A stretch of 64,000 bases of DNA, from the NCBI RefSeq assembly GCF_000613885.1, contig NZ_BAJV01000002.1:124001-188000 (forward strand). Reading direction: 5' to 3'. Both the position numbers and the translations under genes were made by a program. Positions 57,675-64,000 of the stretch are shown in pieces (the stretch's first letter is position 1; each line of letters begins with the position of its first letter). The DNA is from Asaia prunellae JCM 25354. GTDB taxonomy: Bacteria; Pseudomonadota; Alphaproteobacteria; Acetobacterales; Acetobacteraceae. Below the pieces are notes generated by a model that was not told where the DNA came from, made no database searches, and saw nothing but the letters and a program-made list of their open reading frames with translations.

Positions 57675-58033
57675 GGGCTGTATTCCGTATGGTGTCGGTC
57701 TGGTCAGGAGGCATTATTCAAACCTGCAAAGCGTGGGGCGTACTGGCCACATGTGCAGCGGAGCGCCTAACAGAGCCGGATTGCAGTAACAAGCGAGGAT
57801 CACACGCGCTCGTGTAATTCACCTCCGGCATATGCGTGATTCATTATCCAGCCGGTGCTTGCGGCTTGCCTTTTGCGGAAAAAAAAGCCATATCGCGCCC
57901 GTCTGACTTTTCCTCCGGTTCTGCCTGAGGGAGAGGGTAAGGCAATTCGCACGTATGACGACAGACTCTCTGGTGCACGCGAAAGCGCGCGATGTCATAC
58001 GGAGGCACAACCAGAAGAACAGGAATTTGCATC
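57675..58033. promoter_or_regulatory. 359-base gap: promoters of the two-component system and of rpsB
   Basis: No convincing gene is seen. The region is divergent between the response regulator and rpsB, so both promoters must lie here. rpsB leaders are often autoregulated by S2, but no specific leader structure was identified by eye. AGGA at 58021-58024 is the rpsB ribosome site. Confidence 0.4.
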
Positions 58034-58815
58034 ATGGCGATGCCCGAATTCACCATGCGTCAGCTGCTCGAGGCCGGCGTTCACTTTGGTCACCACACGC
58101 GCCGCTGGAACCCGGCGATGGCACCGTATCTCTTCGGTATCCGCAACCAGGTTCACATCATCGATCTGCAGCAGACCGTTCCCCTGCTCGACCGCGCCCT
58201 TCAGGCCGTTCGTAATACGGTTGCCGGTGGCGGGCGCGTGCTGTTCGTTGGCACCAAGCGCGCTGCAGCCGAGCACGTTGCTGAAGCCGCAACCCGTTGT
58301 GGCCAGTATTACGTCAACCACCGCTGGCTTGGCGGCATGCTGACCAACTGGAAGACCATCACCGGTTCGATCAAGCGTCTGCGCCAGATCGACGAGATGC
58401 TCTCCGGTGATACGCATGGTCTGACGAAGAAGGAAATTCTCGACATCACCCGTGACCGCGAAAAGCTTGAGCGCTCGCTCGGTGGTATCAAGGAAATGGG
58501 CGGCCTGCCTGACATCCTGTTCGTGATCGACACGAACAAGGAAAAGCTGGCGGTTGAAGAAGCAACAAGCTCGGTATCCCGGTTATTGCTGTTCTCGACA
58601 GCAACTCTGATCCGGCTGGCGTGACCTACCCGATTCCGGGCAACGACGATGCCATCCGCGCCATCACCACCTATTGCGACCTCGTGGCGCAGTCGGTTCT
58701 GGACGGCATTTCGGCTGAAATGGCTGCTTCAGGCGTTGATTTCGGCGCTTCTGAAGAACTGCCGGTCGAGACAGTTGTTGAGGAAACGACGGCTGAAGCT
58801 CCGGCTGAAGCCTGA
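58034..58815 (+). CDS. rpsB: 30S ribosomal protein S2, frameshifted
   Basis: S2 begins [20 protein letters not shown] at ATG 58034. The frame breaks at 58564-58565, where GAAGCAACAAGC should read GAAGCAAACAAGC; restoring one A gives [20 protein letters not shown] and a 260-residue protein ending in an acidic tail ([11 protein letters not shown]). S2 is essential, so the break is almost certainly a sequence error. It is followed by tsf after a hairpin, the classic rpsB-tsf operon. Confidence 0.95.
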
Positions 58816-58824
58816 TCTGCGTGT

Positions 58825-58844
58825 GGAGAGCTTCCGGGCTCTCC
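58825..58844 (+). other. Hairpin between rpsB and tsf
   Basis: GGAGAGC pairs with GCTCTCC around TTCCGG (7-bp stem). No T-tract follows. In many bacteria a stem-loop between rpsB and tsf adjusts the amounts of the two proteins; here a similar role is plausible. Confidence 0.5.
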
Positions 58845-58919
58845 CGGCATCTGACTATTTTGGGCGTGCCCGGCTGAAAGGCTGCGGCGCGCCGTTTCAT
58901 TCCTGAAGGAGTATGGAAC

Positions 58920-59860
58920 ATGGCGGAAATCACTGCTGCCCTCGTTCGTGAGCTGCGCGAAAAGACCGGCGCTGGCATGATGGATTGCAAGAAGGCCCTT
59001 ACAGAAGCCGCTGGCGACATGGACGCTGCCATCGACTGGCTGCGCGCCAAGGGTCTGTCGCAGGCTGCCAAGAAGTCCGGCCGCACCACGGCTGAAGGCC
59101 TTGTGGCGGTTGCTTCTGGCAAGAACAAGGCCGCTATGGTCGAAGTCAATGCCGAGACCGACTTTGTGGGCCGTAACGAGGCGTTCCAGGCTTTTGTTGA
59201 GTCCGTAGCCCATGCTGCGCTTGAAGCCGGTGACGATCTCGAAGTCCTGTCACAGGCAAAGCTGCCTACGGGCCGTACTGTTGCAGAAGAGCTGACTCAT
59301 CTGATCGCCACGATCGGTGAGAACATGTCGCTGCGTCGTGCCAAGGTTCTGACCGTTCCTTCAGGCATCGTTGCGTCCTATGTCCATGGCGCACTGCGTC
59401 CGGGTGTTGGCAAGATCGGCGTTCTGGCCGCTGTCGAAGCCCCTTCGGAATCCGAAGCGCTTCTGACGCTGGGTCGTCAGATCGGCATGCATGTCGCAGC
59501 AACCCGGCCGGCCGCCCTCGAAGTGGCCAGCGTCGATCCGGAAGCCCTGGAGCGTGAGCGCCAGGTTCTGATCGAGCAGGCTCGTGAGTCCGGCAAGCCG
59601 GAAGCCATCATCGAAAAAATGATCGAAGGTCGTATCCGCAAGTTCTATGAAGAAGTGGTTCTTCTGGAGCAGGTCTGGGTTCATGACGCGAGACGCGCGT
59701 TGCCAAGGTTGTCGAGAAGGCCGGTGCCAAGCTCGTCGCTTTCGAACGCTTCCAGCTCGGTGAAGGCATCGAGAAGGAAACCAGCGATTTTGCTGCCGAA
59801 GTGGCTGCTGCTGCTGGCGCTGATCATCTGATCAGGCAACAAATCGAGCGCGGTACATGA
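58920..59860 (+). CDS. tsf: Elongation factor Ts, frameshifted
   Basis: EF-Ts begins [20 protein letters not shown], with [20 protein letters not shown] following. It recycles EF-Tu by nucleotide exchange. The frame breaks at base 59688, where CATGAC-GCGAGACG should read CATGACGGCGAGACG; restoring the G gives [20 protein letters not shown] and a 313-residue protein. In the corrected frame the stop (59858-59860) overlaps the recO start (ATGA), so tsf and recO are coupled. Probably a sequence error. Confidence 0.94.
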
Positions 59861-60633
59861 ATTTTGAATGTGCCGCGATCGTCCTCTCCGCCCGCCGCTA
59901 CGGCGAGGGCGGGGCAGTGGTCCATCTCTTCACTGAAGAGTATGGCCGCATAGCCGGTCTGGTGCGTGGCGGTTCGTCACGGCGTCAGGCTGCGCTCTGG
60001 CAACCGGGTAATCTCATTCTTGCCCGTTATACTGCGCGACTTGCTGATCAACTGGGGCAACTTGGCGGAGAAATGGTTCAGGAGACAGCCGTCAGGCTTC
60101 TGGATCGCCCCTTGCAACTAGCTCTTGTTCAGTCTGCTGCAGAGCTGGCTGATGCTGCGCTGCCTGATCGTGAGCCTCATCCGGATTTTTTTCTGCGCAC
60201 TGTGCGCGATCTGACGGCATTTTGCGTGTTGAGCGACCCCGCTCCTGTTATCGATTATATCCGCTGGGAAGCGGCATTACTCGCAACGCTGGGTTATGGT
60301 CTGACGCTTGATTGCTGTGCGGTTACCGGCGACAGAGAAAATCTGCGCTACGTTTCCCCCAGGACCGGGCGGGCCGTGAGCGAAAGCGGGGCAGGGCAAT
60401 GGATCGACCGTCTTCTTCCACTCCCTGATTATCTGCGTCCGGATGGAAATGATGATGGTGCTGATAATCCTGCGCTCTGGGCGCAGGGCCTGTCTTTGAC
60501 CGGATATTTTCTTTCCCGTCATCTCTTTGGTACACGCCACCGCCCTGTGCCTGCATCCAGGGAAAGACTTGAGGCCAGGATTAGAGCAATGTGCCCGGTT
60601 TCAGCAATCAGTCACGAGGATAGTGCCCTCTGA
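59857..60633 (+). CDS. recO: DNA repair protein RecO
   Basis: A 258-residue recombination mediator with N-terminal OB-fold ([21 protein letters not shown], then [14 protein letters not shown]) and a helical C-terminal domain. It lacks most of the zinc-binding Cys of some RecO proteins; one Cys pair (LDCCAVTG) remains. It loads RecA on SSB-coated DNA. It overlaps tsf by 4 bases and its last 33 bases overlap the convergent blh gene. Confidence 0.92.
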
Positions 60634-61527
60634 TGACACAGGAAGTCGTCTGTAGAAAAAAGTGACAAGCCGCTCGAAGATCATGTGGGGCAGAGTCAGG
60701 GCAGCAAGGAGCTGAAAAGTAATCTGGACACTGCGCATCTCATGGGATCCCGCAAAAAACGGCCACAGAGCCAGTGCAATCATCCCGGTTGCGAGGGTAA
60801 GAGGCAAAGCATGCAGCAGGGCTGTCTGCCATGAAGCGATACGGCTCCATCGTATATCTTTTATCAGGGTGTTGATGTGGGCGGGTGCATGGATGAACAC
60901 GAAATAGAGCATGAATGCCTGCAACGGTTGGCATAGCCAGAATATGATAGCCAGGCCGGTCATCAAACACAGATGGTGTCGTCTTGTATCCTTTTGGCAG
61001 GTAGCCAGGTCGAGAGCGACAGATGCTATCCATAGAGGGGCTAGTGTCACAAGCCATAGCGGTGGTGAGCTCAGGCTTTCTGGCAGCACCATGGTACTCA
61101 GCAGAGCAGCTGTTGCATCAGGGCGCAAAAGACAGGGCAGAATGAGCGGCGCGCCACCCCAGGCCAGTACGGATGCAGGTGAAATATTTCCAGCCTCTCT
61201 TTCCATCCCGAAATGGCAAAGAGAAAGAACCAGAAACGCGTTCAGCGTTCCCACGGGCCAGACATGCCAGCACCAGAGAACCATGCCAACAAGGAACAGG
61301 TAAGGCAGGGCGAATGAAGGGAACCACCAGGATCTGAAGCGGTGCCGAAGTATCTCTCTCGCCATCTCGCCATCCAGAGCCCCATGGGGGAGACCAAAGA
61401 TGGCAATCATGGCGAGAGCAGGTAGGGGAGATCCCAGCCAGAGTGAAGCCATCGCACCAGAAATGGCGAGACTCCAGTAGGTCTGTTCGAACAGGCGGTT
61501 GGAGAGAGGTGAAGGCCTTGTGAGCAA
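60601..61527 (-). CDS. blh: Brp/Blh family beta-carotene 15,15'-dioxygenase (retinal synthase)
   Basis: A 308-residue integral membrane protein with about eight hydrophobic segments. Conserved iron-binding His motifs of the family are present: GLPHGALDGE, LSLCHFGMERE, FIHAPAHINT and TLPHMIFERL. The enzyme splits beta-carotene into two retinals, the chromophore of the rhodopsin encoded 16 bases upstream. The start is TTG 61527, supported by a strong AGGAGGGG five bases before it. It converges on recO and overlaps its end by 33 bases. No carotenoid-synthesis gene is in the window, so beta-carotene must be made elsewhere in the genome. Confidence 0.93.
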   Translation of the reverse strand: MLTRPSPLSNRLFEQTYWSLAISGAMASLWLGSPLPALAMIAIFGLPHGALDGEMAREILRHRFRSWWFPSFALPYLFLVGMVLWCWHVWPVGTLNAFLVLSLCHFGMEREAGNISPASVLAWGGAPLILPCLLRPDATAALLSTMVLPESLSSPPLWLVTLAPLWIASVALDLATCQKDTRRHHLCLMTGLAIIFWLCQPLQAFMLYFVFIHAPAHINTLIKDIRWSRIASWQTALLHALPLTLATGMIALALWPFFAGSHEMRSVQITFQLLAALTLPHMIFERLVTFFYRRLPVSSEGTILVTDC

Positions 61528-61543
61528 GACTTCCCCTCCTGTC

Positions 61544-62257
61544 TCAGACTGTCGTCAGTTTCCGGTCGTCAGACAGGCTGAGGAAACCAAATCCGACCTT
61601 GGCCAGAACATCTGTCACAGCAATGACGAGAACACTGGCGGAGTCAGTCACGAGACCAAGCCCGTCGGGGGATAGTGCGAGAATGACCGGATAAACCATC
61701 CAGAGGATAGACAGAACTGCAGCGCTGCGTTTGTACGCTGCCTGCACTGCAGGCAGTTCAAGCCGGTTGGCCTGAAGCTGCGAGACCCAGATGACATAAT
61801 AGACGCCCAGAAACGCAATGCAGGACAAGATAAACCAGATCCAGCGGCTGATGACGTTCTCTGAAGCACTGAACGCGAAAGCCGTGATAACCATGATGAT
61901 ATCGGCTGCTACGGCACCGAGAAGCAGGTCAGTTCTTTTGCGTCCGCGGAACATCCCCAGGCAGCCAAGGCCGATGAGAAGGAGCGGTGTGGTGAAAAGC
62001 CAGTCGATGTACCGTCCGAACCAGAAGATACGCGTTGTATTGGCCGCTCCTGCCAGAGTGGCATCGGTGGGGAGGAGCAGGGCACCCTGACCGGTAGCCA
62101 TAGCCACATAGAGGCAGCCGGCGATGATGGGCACTATGCCGTGCGAGAGGCTCATGACCCCTTCGGTTTCCGTACGTCGTTTACCGAGCAGGAGGAGCGC
62201 CGTCCCTCCGGCAAACATGATCAGGGCAGTCAGCCATAGAACGGTCTGGGTCATCAT
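61544..62257 (-). CDS. Microbial rhodopsin, D-T-G type light-driven proton pump
   Basis: A 237-residue seven-helix protein. By alignment to bacteriorhodopsin, helix C reads RYIDWLFTTPLLLIG: Arg82, Asp85 (proton acceptor) and Thr89 are kept, but the cytoplasmic donor Asp96 is Gly96 (D-T-G). Helix G has TDVLAKVGFGF with Asp216 and the retinal Lys220. Helix B has His39 at the place of BR Thr46, the feature of a described proteobacterial group in which a helix-B His replaces the carboxylic donor. Leu93 predicts green absorption, and Phe142 at the carotenoid-contact position argues against a xanthorhodopsin-type antenna. First gene of the rhodopsin-blh pair; starts at ATG 62257 (or 62254). Confidence 0.95.
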   Translation of the reverse strand: MMTQTVLWLTALIMFAGGTALLLLGKRRTETEGVMSLSHGIVPIIAGCLYVAMATGQGALLLPTDATLAGAANTTRIFWFGRYIDWLFTTPLLLIGLGCLGMFRGRKRTDLLLGAVAADIIMVITAFAFSASENVISRWIWFILSCIAFLGVYYVIWVSQLQANRLELPAVQAAYKRSAAVLSILWMVYPVILALSPDGLGLVTDSASVLVIAVTDVLAKVGFGFLSLSDDRKLTTV

Positions 62258-62305
62258 CGCTATCTTTCACGCAGAGAAGAGATTGCTGAACGAGTCCTGA
62301 CACAA

Positions 62306-62319
62306 AAGTTGTAGAACTT
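62306..62319. promoter_or_regulatory. Inverted repeat in the rhodopsin/parC divergent gap
   Basis: AAGTT-GTAG-AACTT is an exact inverted repeat about 50 bases before the rhodopsin start. It lies in the 227-base region that must hold the rhodopsin promoter (minus) and the parC promoter (plus). It could be an operator for light or growth-dependent control; a TTGACC at 62326-62331 is a possible -35 for parC. Function is inferred only from position. Confidence 0.3.
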
Positions 62320-62484
62320 CCCATCTTGACCGATCTTTTGGGTCCCTTTTTCGATCTGCAGGTCTTTTCCGGACCAGAGATAACTGTCTGGACGCTTCAG
62401 GCAGAAACCAGAACAAAAACGGGGTATTTGCACTGGACATTGTCCGGGGCACCGCCTTATCTGCCTGAAACAAGAGGGCGTGAG

Positions 62485-64000
62485 ATGAGTCAGGATCTGG
62501 CAGGACATATCGAGGATACGAAACTCGCTGATGCGTTGAGCGAGCGATATATCGCCTATGCGATGTCAACCATCATGCGCGTTCCCTGCCGGATGTGCGT
62601 GATGGCATGAAGCCGGTCCACAGGCGCATACTCTATGCCATGCAGCAACTGAAACTGGATCCCAGTTCGGGCTTCAAGAAATGTGCCCGGGTAGTTGGTG
62701 ATGTTATCGGTAAATTCCATCCCCATGGCGACGCGGCTGTTTATGAGGCACTGGTACGTCTGGCTCAGGATTTTGCTGTGCGCTACCCGCTTGTCGAGGG
62801 GCAGGGTAACTTCGGTTCAATCGATGGCGATAATGCGGCTGCCATGCGATATACCGAGTCCCGTCTGACGGAAGTGGCAAAGGCGCTTCTGGAAGGGATC
62901 GAGGATGATGCTGTCGATTTCCGCCCGACATATGACAACGAGGATGCAGAGCCTGTTGTCCTGCCAGGTGCTTTCCCGAATCTCCTTGCCAACGGGGCAG
63001 CGGGTATTGCCGTCGGTATGGCTACGTCCATACCACCGCATAATGCCGCAGAAATCTGCCGTGCCGCACGCCATCTGATTGATGACCCCAAGGCGTCTGT
63101 CGAAGCGCTCATGCAGTATATGCCGGGTCCGGATTTTCCGACTGGTGGAGTGCTGATCGAAGAGGCGCAGAGCATACGCAGCGCCTACGAGACGGGGCGA
63201 GGCAGCTTTCGTACCAGAGCACGCTGGGAGGTTGAGCAGGGGCGTTTCGGGACCTGGACAGTTATTGTAAACGAGATCCCCTATCAGGTGCAGAAAGCGC
63301 GTCTGATCGAGCAGATTGCCGAGTTGATGGAGCAGAAGAAACTGCCTCTGCTCGCGGATATACGCGATGAAAGTACGACGGATATCCGTCTTGTTCTCGA
63401 GCCGAAAACCAAGGGAATCGAGCCCGAAGTGCTGATGGAAACGCTTTTCCGCGTTACGGCACTCGAGAGCCGCTTCAGCCTCAACATGAACGTGCTTGAT
63501 GCCAATCGCGTGCCCAGGGTTATGGGACTGCGTGAAGTTATCCAGTCCTGGCTCGACCATCGTGAGATCGTGCTGGTTCGTCGCTCGACCCATCGTCTGG
63601 CTGCCGTTGAACGACGCCTGGAGATTCTTGAAGGCTTTCTGGCAGTTTATCTCAATCTTGATGAGGTCATCAGGATCATTCGCGAGAGCGATGAGCCCAA
63701 GCCGGAACTGATGCGCGTTTTCAGCCTGACAGATCTTCAGGCAGAATATGTGCTGAACATGCGTCTGCGTTCACTGCGCAGATTGGAGGAAATCGAGCTC
63801 CGCAAGGAGCGTGATGCGCTTCTGAAGGAAAAGGCGAGTCTTCAGGGATTGCTTGGCAGCGAGCGCAAGCGCTGGACCCGTATCGGCAAGGAACTCGAAG
63901 CGACTGCAATCAGGTTTGGTGATGGCGCACTTGGTGCCCGTCGTACGCAGATTGCGGCACCTCCTGCACCCATAGATCTGAGTGTTGCCATTCAGGTCGA
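62485..64000 (+). CDS. parC: DNA topoisomerase IV subunit A, frameshifted; 3' end outside window
   Basis: ParC relaxes and unlinks DNA. The N-terminus ([18 protein letters not shown]) and the catalytic Tyr region ([15 protein letters not shown]) fit ParC rather than GyrA, as does [20 protein letters not shown]. The frame breaks at base 62577, where ATCATG-CGCGTTCC should read ATCATGGCGCGTTCC; restoring the G gives [20 protein letters not shown]. The rest is open to the end of the window. ATG 62485 follows AGAGGGCGTGAG. As an essential gene it should be intact, so the break is probably an error. Confidence 0.93.

Follow-up and report, generated by a model that had tools for sequence, protein, structure and literature searches.

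Rhodopsin and Blh genes in Asaia without a recognised pathway for the Blh substrate: possible use of outside beta-carotene

Introduction

The locus described here raises the question of where the retinal for its opsin would come from. The window, by which we mean the whole stretch of 64,000 nucleotides analysed from Asaia prunellae JCM 25354, carries an opsin gene followed by a gene for a Brp/Blh-family beta-carotene 15,15'-dioxygenase (Blh), and an initial annotation of the sequence supposed that the cell supplies the opsin with retinal from its own beta-carotene and gains a light-driven proton pump. The same annotation placed the novelty of the locus in host and context. However, an operon of the same two genes in the same genus, consisting of rhodopsin and a beta-carotene 15,15'-monooxygenase, was described for Asaia bogorensis NBRC 16594 in 2015 and proposed to be a light-driven ion pump with its retinal supply (PMC4596401), and because of this publication most of the host novelty is gone. 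The passage on the operon in that report does not take up the question of beta-carotene synthesis or the branch of the opsin. What appears to be new, as far as profile searches show, is that carriers of the opsin-Blh pair are predicted to be without a pathway for the Blh substrate. The reading we favour, with a probability of about 0.5, is that of a working pump whose retinal would come from externally acquired beta-carotene cleaved by Blh.

The opsin and Blh genes

The two genes and the gap between them are as follows.

61544..62257, minus strand: opsin, a DTG-type microbial rhodopsin of 237 aa (PF01036, E 1.2e-42; alignment; tree)
60601..61527, minus strand: Blh, a Brp/Blh-family beta-carotene 15,15'-dioxygenase of 308 aa with a TTG start (PF15461, E 4.6e-36; TIGR03753)
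61528..61543, minus strand: opsin-Blh gap of 16 bp with the AGGAGG ribosome site for Blh (sequence)

Both reading frames are intact in the Asaia assembly, and the possibility that they are chance open reading frames was ruled out by the profile matches (PF01036, PF15461 and TIGR03753) and the PDB sequence matches. The opsin scored 146.4 bits with PF01036 against a cut-off of 24.6, and 139 different sequences in the PDB matched it at E<=0.001. The alignment gives R82, D85, T89, G96, H39, D216 and K220 as its key residues, and it has the family profile, the Schiff-base lysine (K220) and the counterions (D85 and D216) of a type-1 microbial rhodopsin. The score of Blh with TIGR03753 was 165.3 bits, above the curated cut-off of 95.25, and H48, H105, H213, H217 and H281 are invariant across eight aligned homologues; we take this conserved histidine set to have a metal role. 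The structure model of the opsin was poor (pLDDT 58) and was left unused for fold search, while that of Blh had pLDDT 84. No structural inference is made for Blh, since it had neither a fold match at E<=0.001 nor a sequence match at E<=0.1 in the PDB.

These coordinates and profiles agree with the initial annotation, which described a rhodopsin and Blh pair in an acetic acid bacterium, 16 bp apart on the same strand, and the D-T-G helix C with a helix-B His that it noted is seen in the alignment as D85-T89-G96 and H39. The strong ribosome site that it placed before the second gene is also there, as AGGAGG precedes the TTG of Blh, though this feature is local to the window, since AGGAGG is missing from the equivalent stretch in all eight other Asaia/Swaminathania loci examined. 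A single transcript for both genes, likewise supposed, is probable because the gap is only 16 bp.

Insertion site and upstream region

The pair lies between two genes of the opposite strand and is preceded by a conserved upstream element.

59857..60633, plus strand: recO, flanking the insertion site on one side (PF02565, PF11967; synteny)
62485..64000, plus strand: parC (topoisomerase IV subunit A), the other flank (start read by eye)
62287..62313, minus strand: promoter-like footprint upstream of opsin, TACAACTTTwTGTGTCA then CGTT (10 upstream regions aligned)

The 3' end of Blh shares 33 bp with recO. The initial annotation had proposed a search of related genomes for the same pair, and the pair was found in 9/9 Asaia genomes and in Swaminathania, in each with the gene order tsf, recO, Blh and opsin (on the opposite strand) and parC, five of the nine Asaia loci having been read via named records in this count. 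At 18 other recO loci, parC follows recO without an intervening opsin in seven (L166, L171, L172, L175, L177, L178 and L181), and at the other 11 the short flank examined showed no parC. The simplest reading of these arrangements is that the cassette would have been gained once, inserting between recO and parC before Asaia and Swaminathania diverged. The similarity of parC to the A. bogorensis-type protein starts at 62434, with a frameshift near 62577. Frameshifts break rpsB, tsf and parC (57992-64000) and also hpnC in the window's assembly, and such frameshifts in conserved genes are most likely sequencing errors; tsf is also split in the records of A. platycodi (L077) and A. astilbis (L082).

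The footprint precedes the opsin start by about 30 bp in 10/10 Asaia/Swaminathania upstream regions, one base shorter in the window than in its relatives and with one change in the Swaminathania copy, and a second conserved block is found farther upstream, toward parC. We take the footprint to resemble an ECF-sigma -35/-10 pair (AAC...CGTT, with a spacer of 16, or 15 in the window). The exact core was found in 23 of 190 loci, all Asaia and including many overlapping copies of a single site, and among these 190 loci it was confined to the site upstream of the opsin. A loose form of the pattern gave two matches within the window against 0.55 expected, which is not beyond chance. Scanning the window for the exact core, with at most three mismatches allowed, gave one unrelated site only, as chance predicts; the opsin site was missed by this search because one base is missing there.

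Beta-carotene pathway in Asaia

Blh was recognised (PF15461) in 9/9 Asaia genomes, and the initial annotation had suggested that crtE/B/I/Y should be looked for. The same nine genomes gave no match to TIGR01789 (CrtY) or to TIGR03462 (heterodimeric lycopene cyclase, a search that covered Asaia only), and TIGR01790 (CrtL-type) reached at most 29.2 bits against a cut-off of 209.5, with N-terminal parts of the model only. As positive controls from the same family, TIGR01789 gave 469 bits in G026 and 454 bits in G260. PF05834 had matches in 9/9 Asaia, some of them above its loose cut-off of 23.4 and all within the first 160 model positions, and among 14 control genomes the same search was also positive in 10, E. 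coli included. The best Asaia match (33.6 bits, in the window's genome) lies in a halogenase-like protein (L040). This flavoprotein was considered as a hidden lycopene cyclase and rejected, as it scored 52.8 bits with Pfam Trp_halogenase versus 35.2 with Lycopene_cycl.

PF00494 (SQS_PSY) identified two genes per genome in 9/9 Asaia, one of them in two pieces in the window's assembly. Their identity as HpnC and HpnD and the cluster around them were read in detail only in the single-contig Asaia genome G149, where one gene is HpnD (319.9 bits over 278.6), adjoined by HpnE, and the other is HpnC only just (251.2 over 250.45). Two neighbouring crtI-family genes are unbroken in seven of the nine Asaia genomes, one of them being fragmented in G286 and G299, and the pair in G149 is surrounded by aldehyde dehydrogenase, acyltransferase and glycosyltransferase genes, as expected for a predicted squalene-based C30-type carotenoid route like that of Methylobacterium extorquens AM1. 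Two aldehyde dehydrogenases tested for the AM1 route were not needed (PMC10448405).

Phytoene synthase and lycopene cyclase, which together in a genome would mark a self-sufficient retinal photosystem, were thus not recognised in Asaia by profile search, and the standard C40 steps were unrecognised in 9/9 genomes, although profile searches leave room for an unrecognised cyclase or phytoene synthase. As each of the nine has only a pair of SQS_PSY genes and no lycopene cyclase that the profiles recognise, the proposal of retinal from the cell's own beta-carotene is not supported. It could be rescued if trace beta-carotene were made by an unrecognised route, for instance by promiscuous HpnC/HpnD or desaturase together with an unrecognised cyclase, and then cleaved by Blh. 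This is in line with a study of six Asaia strains, in which beta-carotene was reported for two A. bogorensis strains in minimal sucrose medium (0.1 and 0.7 ug/100 mL) and none for the other four, along with other C40 carotenoids, among them zeaxanthin and canthaxanthin in some strains (PMC6151773); if that beta-carotene is right, some unrecognised route exists. Aurantimicrobium minutum, moreover, is described as making retinal without blh or diox1 (PMC7734400). However, the pigments assigned in PMC6151773 also include neoxanthin, synechoxanthin and myxoxanthophyll, which are unexplained by any gene found, and a self-sufficient cassette must be set against the lack of any recognised cyclase of CrtY, CrtL or CrtYc/d type and of a third SQS_PSY gene in 9/9 Asaia, the best PF05834 candidate being like a tryptophan halogenase. 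We regard it as rather unlikely.

Opsin types across the Acetobacteraceae

Of 299 Acetobacteraceae genomes searched, 26 have a PF01036 match, and seven of these are Asaia; two further Asaia genomes outside this draw (G299 and G300) carry the opsin beside Blh. The 19 opsin-bearing genomes outside Asaia comprise 12 with MpR-like opsins, six with the xanthorhodopsin type and two unclassified, with G017 counted under both types and the type in G105 and G260 assigned from partial genes. All six xanthorhodopsin carriers have TIGR01790 matches that span three quarters of the model or more and score 67-308 bits, G026 and G260 alone exceeding the curated cut-off. G284 serves as a further positive control, since Pfam finds in it a row of opsin, polyprenyl synthase, desaturase, SQS_PSY, lycopene cyclase (192.7 bits, near full length) and Blh. 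A lycopene cyclase was recognised in 0/20 genomes with an MpR-like opsin only (TIGR01790 at most 29.2 bits), these being nine Asaia, Swaminathania and ten others, which are related and not independent events, and three of the ten others reach a completeness of at most 85%. TIGR01789 gave N-terminal matches only in these 20 genomes, of at most 22.9 bits, in G108 and G163. Blh adjoins the opsin in seven of the ten others, in G181 in two pieces, and was not seen in the flank examined for G128, G163 (contig edge) and G206. Extra SQS_PSY genes occur in some of the ten; they may serve purple-bacterial carotenoids in G086 (L140) and G132 (L141), since they lie near bchP and some kilobases from pufL, respectively.

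Some of these genomes have features of their own. G132 (pufL) and G086 (bchP) combine an MpR-type opsin with purple-photosynthesis genes, pointing to possible dual phototrophy. G108 has two MpR-type opsins (L007 and L027), while G017 has one MpR-type and one xanthorhodopsin-type opsin (L020 and L028). The unclassified opsins of G084 and G148 (L024 and L025) are divergent PF01036 members on a very long branch and give no match to the usual helix-C motif.

Selection on opsin and Blh

The mean omega over 36 pairs was 0.064 for the opsin and 0.132 for recO, and the median for Blh was 0.248 (32 of the 36 pairs with usable dS), A. platycodi being excluded from all three sets for its split Blh. Non-synonymous changes in opsin, Blh and recO were below neutral expectation in both of two close pairs, with P values of 1.8e-7 and 3.2e-11 for the opsin and of 1.0e-6 and 1.7e-3 for Blh. 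Judged by these substitution patterns, opsin and Blh are both under purifying selection, and for this reason both are probably in use, which in turn implies that retinal or a precursor would reach the cell.

Ready-made retinal might be what is imported, with Blh as a leftover under weak constraint. Blh is indeed much more divergent than the opsin within Asaia/Swaminathania, with a mean identity of 52% versus 88% and a Blh/opsin distance ratio of 4.65 (range 2.84-11.96) versus 1.28 (1.01-1.96) in 28 pairs of eight other family members, the Asaia ratio being the highest seen, among few comparators and with a ratio that falls with divergence. Outside supply has also been reported for Rhodoluna lacicola (PMC7734400). 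However, Blh outpaces the opsin elsewhere too, as in a Pantoea pair of comparable opsin divergence, where the ratio is 2.46, and the purifying selection on Blh in both close pairs and its invariant histidines do not suit a leftover. A sequencing error probably explains why Blh is split in A. platycodi, because that record splits tsf too. Comparison of close pairs and of other lineages thus gave no support to fast divergence of Blh as a sign of lost function, and import of ready-made retinal seems to us quite improbable.

Opsin branch and transported ion

The nearest named opsins are those of Asaia species (86-91% identity) and Swaminathania salitolerans (85%), the Swaminathania opsin having S at position 96. 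The tree, built from 37 opsins, places Asaia and Swaminathania within an Acetobacteraceae-Methylobacterium group of 25 rows with moderate support (88/91). The Pantoea-Sphingomonas opsins form a neighbouring separate group (99/98), and both groups are joined at 99/97; MpR and SpaR are themselves outside this tree, with two Methylobacterium plasmid opsins and the Pantoea/Sphingomonas plasmid opsins as stand-ins. The Asaia opsin has 44% identity to Methylobacterium versus 32% to Pantoea/Sphingomonas. The gene arrangement is shared with both, since the Methylobacterium plasmid has opsin then Blh as in Asaia, and the Pantoea and Sphingomonas plasmids also carry the opsin-Blh pair.

The residues of the Asaia opsin make up a mosaic, with E32, G33, V34 and M35, yet S130 and S208. 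E32, E33 and D35 are described as common to 'most' MpR-like members (PMC10154332), and of these Asaia shares E32 with the MpR-like DTG rhodopsins of its branch and differs from them in G33 and M35, in the SpaR-type serines and in the recO-parC site. With the 'mirror proteorhodopsins' SpaR (PDB 8ANQ), PspR and PaR it has in common the D-T-G/S helix C and the donor-region helix-B His (PMC10154332), and its S130 and S208 match S121 and S199 of SpaR. It differs from them by its place outside the SpaR-like (Pantoea/Sphingomonas) clade, by V34 and M35 instead of the H32/H33 pair, and by R104 where SpaR has E92. Pumping of H+ at acidic pH alone is a further mark of the SpaR-like mirror proteorhodopsins. 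The same source separates SpaR-like proton pumps (H32/H33, S121/S199) from the MpR-like clade (E32/E33/D35), in which it places MpR of Methylobacterium populi, a reported Li+/Na+ pump, and states that the three-letter motif is insufficient for predicting function (PMC10154332).

Since the Asaia opsin mixes MpR-like and SpaR-like residues, the transported ion is not fixed by sequence. Proton pumping, as put forward in the initial annotation, is unproven for an opsin that groups with Methylobacterium (MpR-like) and is without the SpaR His pair. The tree position outside Pantoea/Sphingomonas, the higher identity to Methylobacterium, the retained E32, the absent H32/H33 and the reported activity of MpR would all suit an opsin that pumps Na+/Li+ (or several cations) and not H+. 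The replacement of E33 and D35 by G33 and M35 and the SpaR-type serines argue against such a pump, and the insufficiency of the motif weakens any transfer of function from MpR. H+ is favoured as slightly more likely, and Na+/Li+ is a live alternative that we place on the doubtful side.

A xanthorhodopsin-type carotenoid antenna needs a small residue (Gly) at the helix-E fenestration. The Asaia opsin has F142, not Gly, at the position of SpaR Y133, which we take to be the fenestration position, and an antenna of this type was on this general rule rejected.

Proposed use of outside beta-carotene

Because the genes for beta-carotene synthesis appear to be missing, Asaia and its sister species may have to borrow host pigment, and the simplest way to account for the gene content is that beta-carotene is scavenged from outside. 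The cell would take up beta-carotene, or perhaps a beta-ring apocarotenoid, from its plant, fruit or insect host, and the retinal that Blh forms by cleaving it would load the opsin. Light would then drive outward cation transport, with the Schiff-base proton accepted by D85 and reprotonation via a cytoplasmic path in which H39 may replace the carboxylate donor, by analogy with H37 of SpaR. The cell would be a conditional phototroph, its light use dependent on outside carotenoid. It is tempting to go further and regard the MpR-type cassette of Asaia, Swaminathania and the other Acetobacteraceae carriers found in this analysis as host-fuelled phototrophy, uncoupled from carotenoid synthesis and scavenging the beta-carotene of plants (or of plant-feeding insects) for pump retinal, so that the cells would be 'provitamin A auxotrophs' for light use; this wider proposal is tentative, and we hold it at somewhat less than even odds.

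The proposed dependence can in some respects be compared to that of Rhodoluna lacicola, which according to PMC7734400 has an opsin without a full retinal pathway and for which outside supply was inferred. R. lacicola is there without blh, whereas Asaia keeps blh and is without recognised beta-carotene steps. In the open-licence PMC literature, the titles and abstract beginnings of the matches listed did not tie Asaia to C30 carotenoids or to absent beta-carotene steps, and PMC8776678, in the part available, has no mention of rhodopsin or phytoene.

The scavenging idea should be easily tested by growth, as these are culturable land bacteria. On this reading, the locus would also be a warning that 'opsin + blh' alone is no proof of self-sufficient phototrophy. 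If the favoured reading is true, retinal dependence would in this case retain the cleavage enzyme but not the pathway to its substrate, and a symbiont of flowers and mosquitoes would need outside carotenoid for its use of light.
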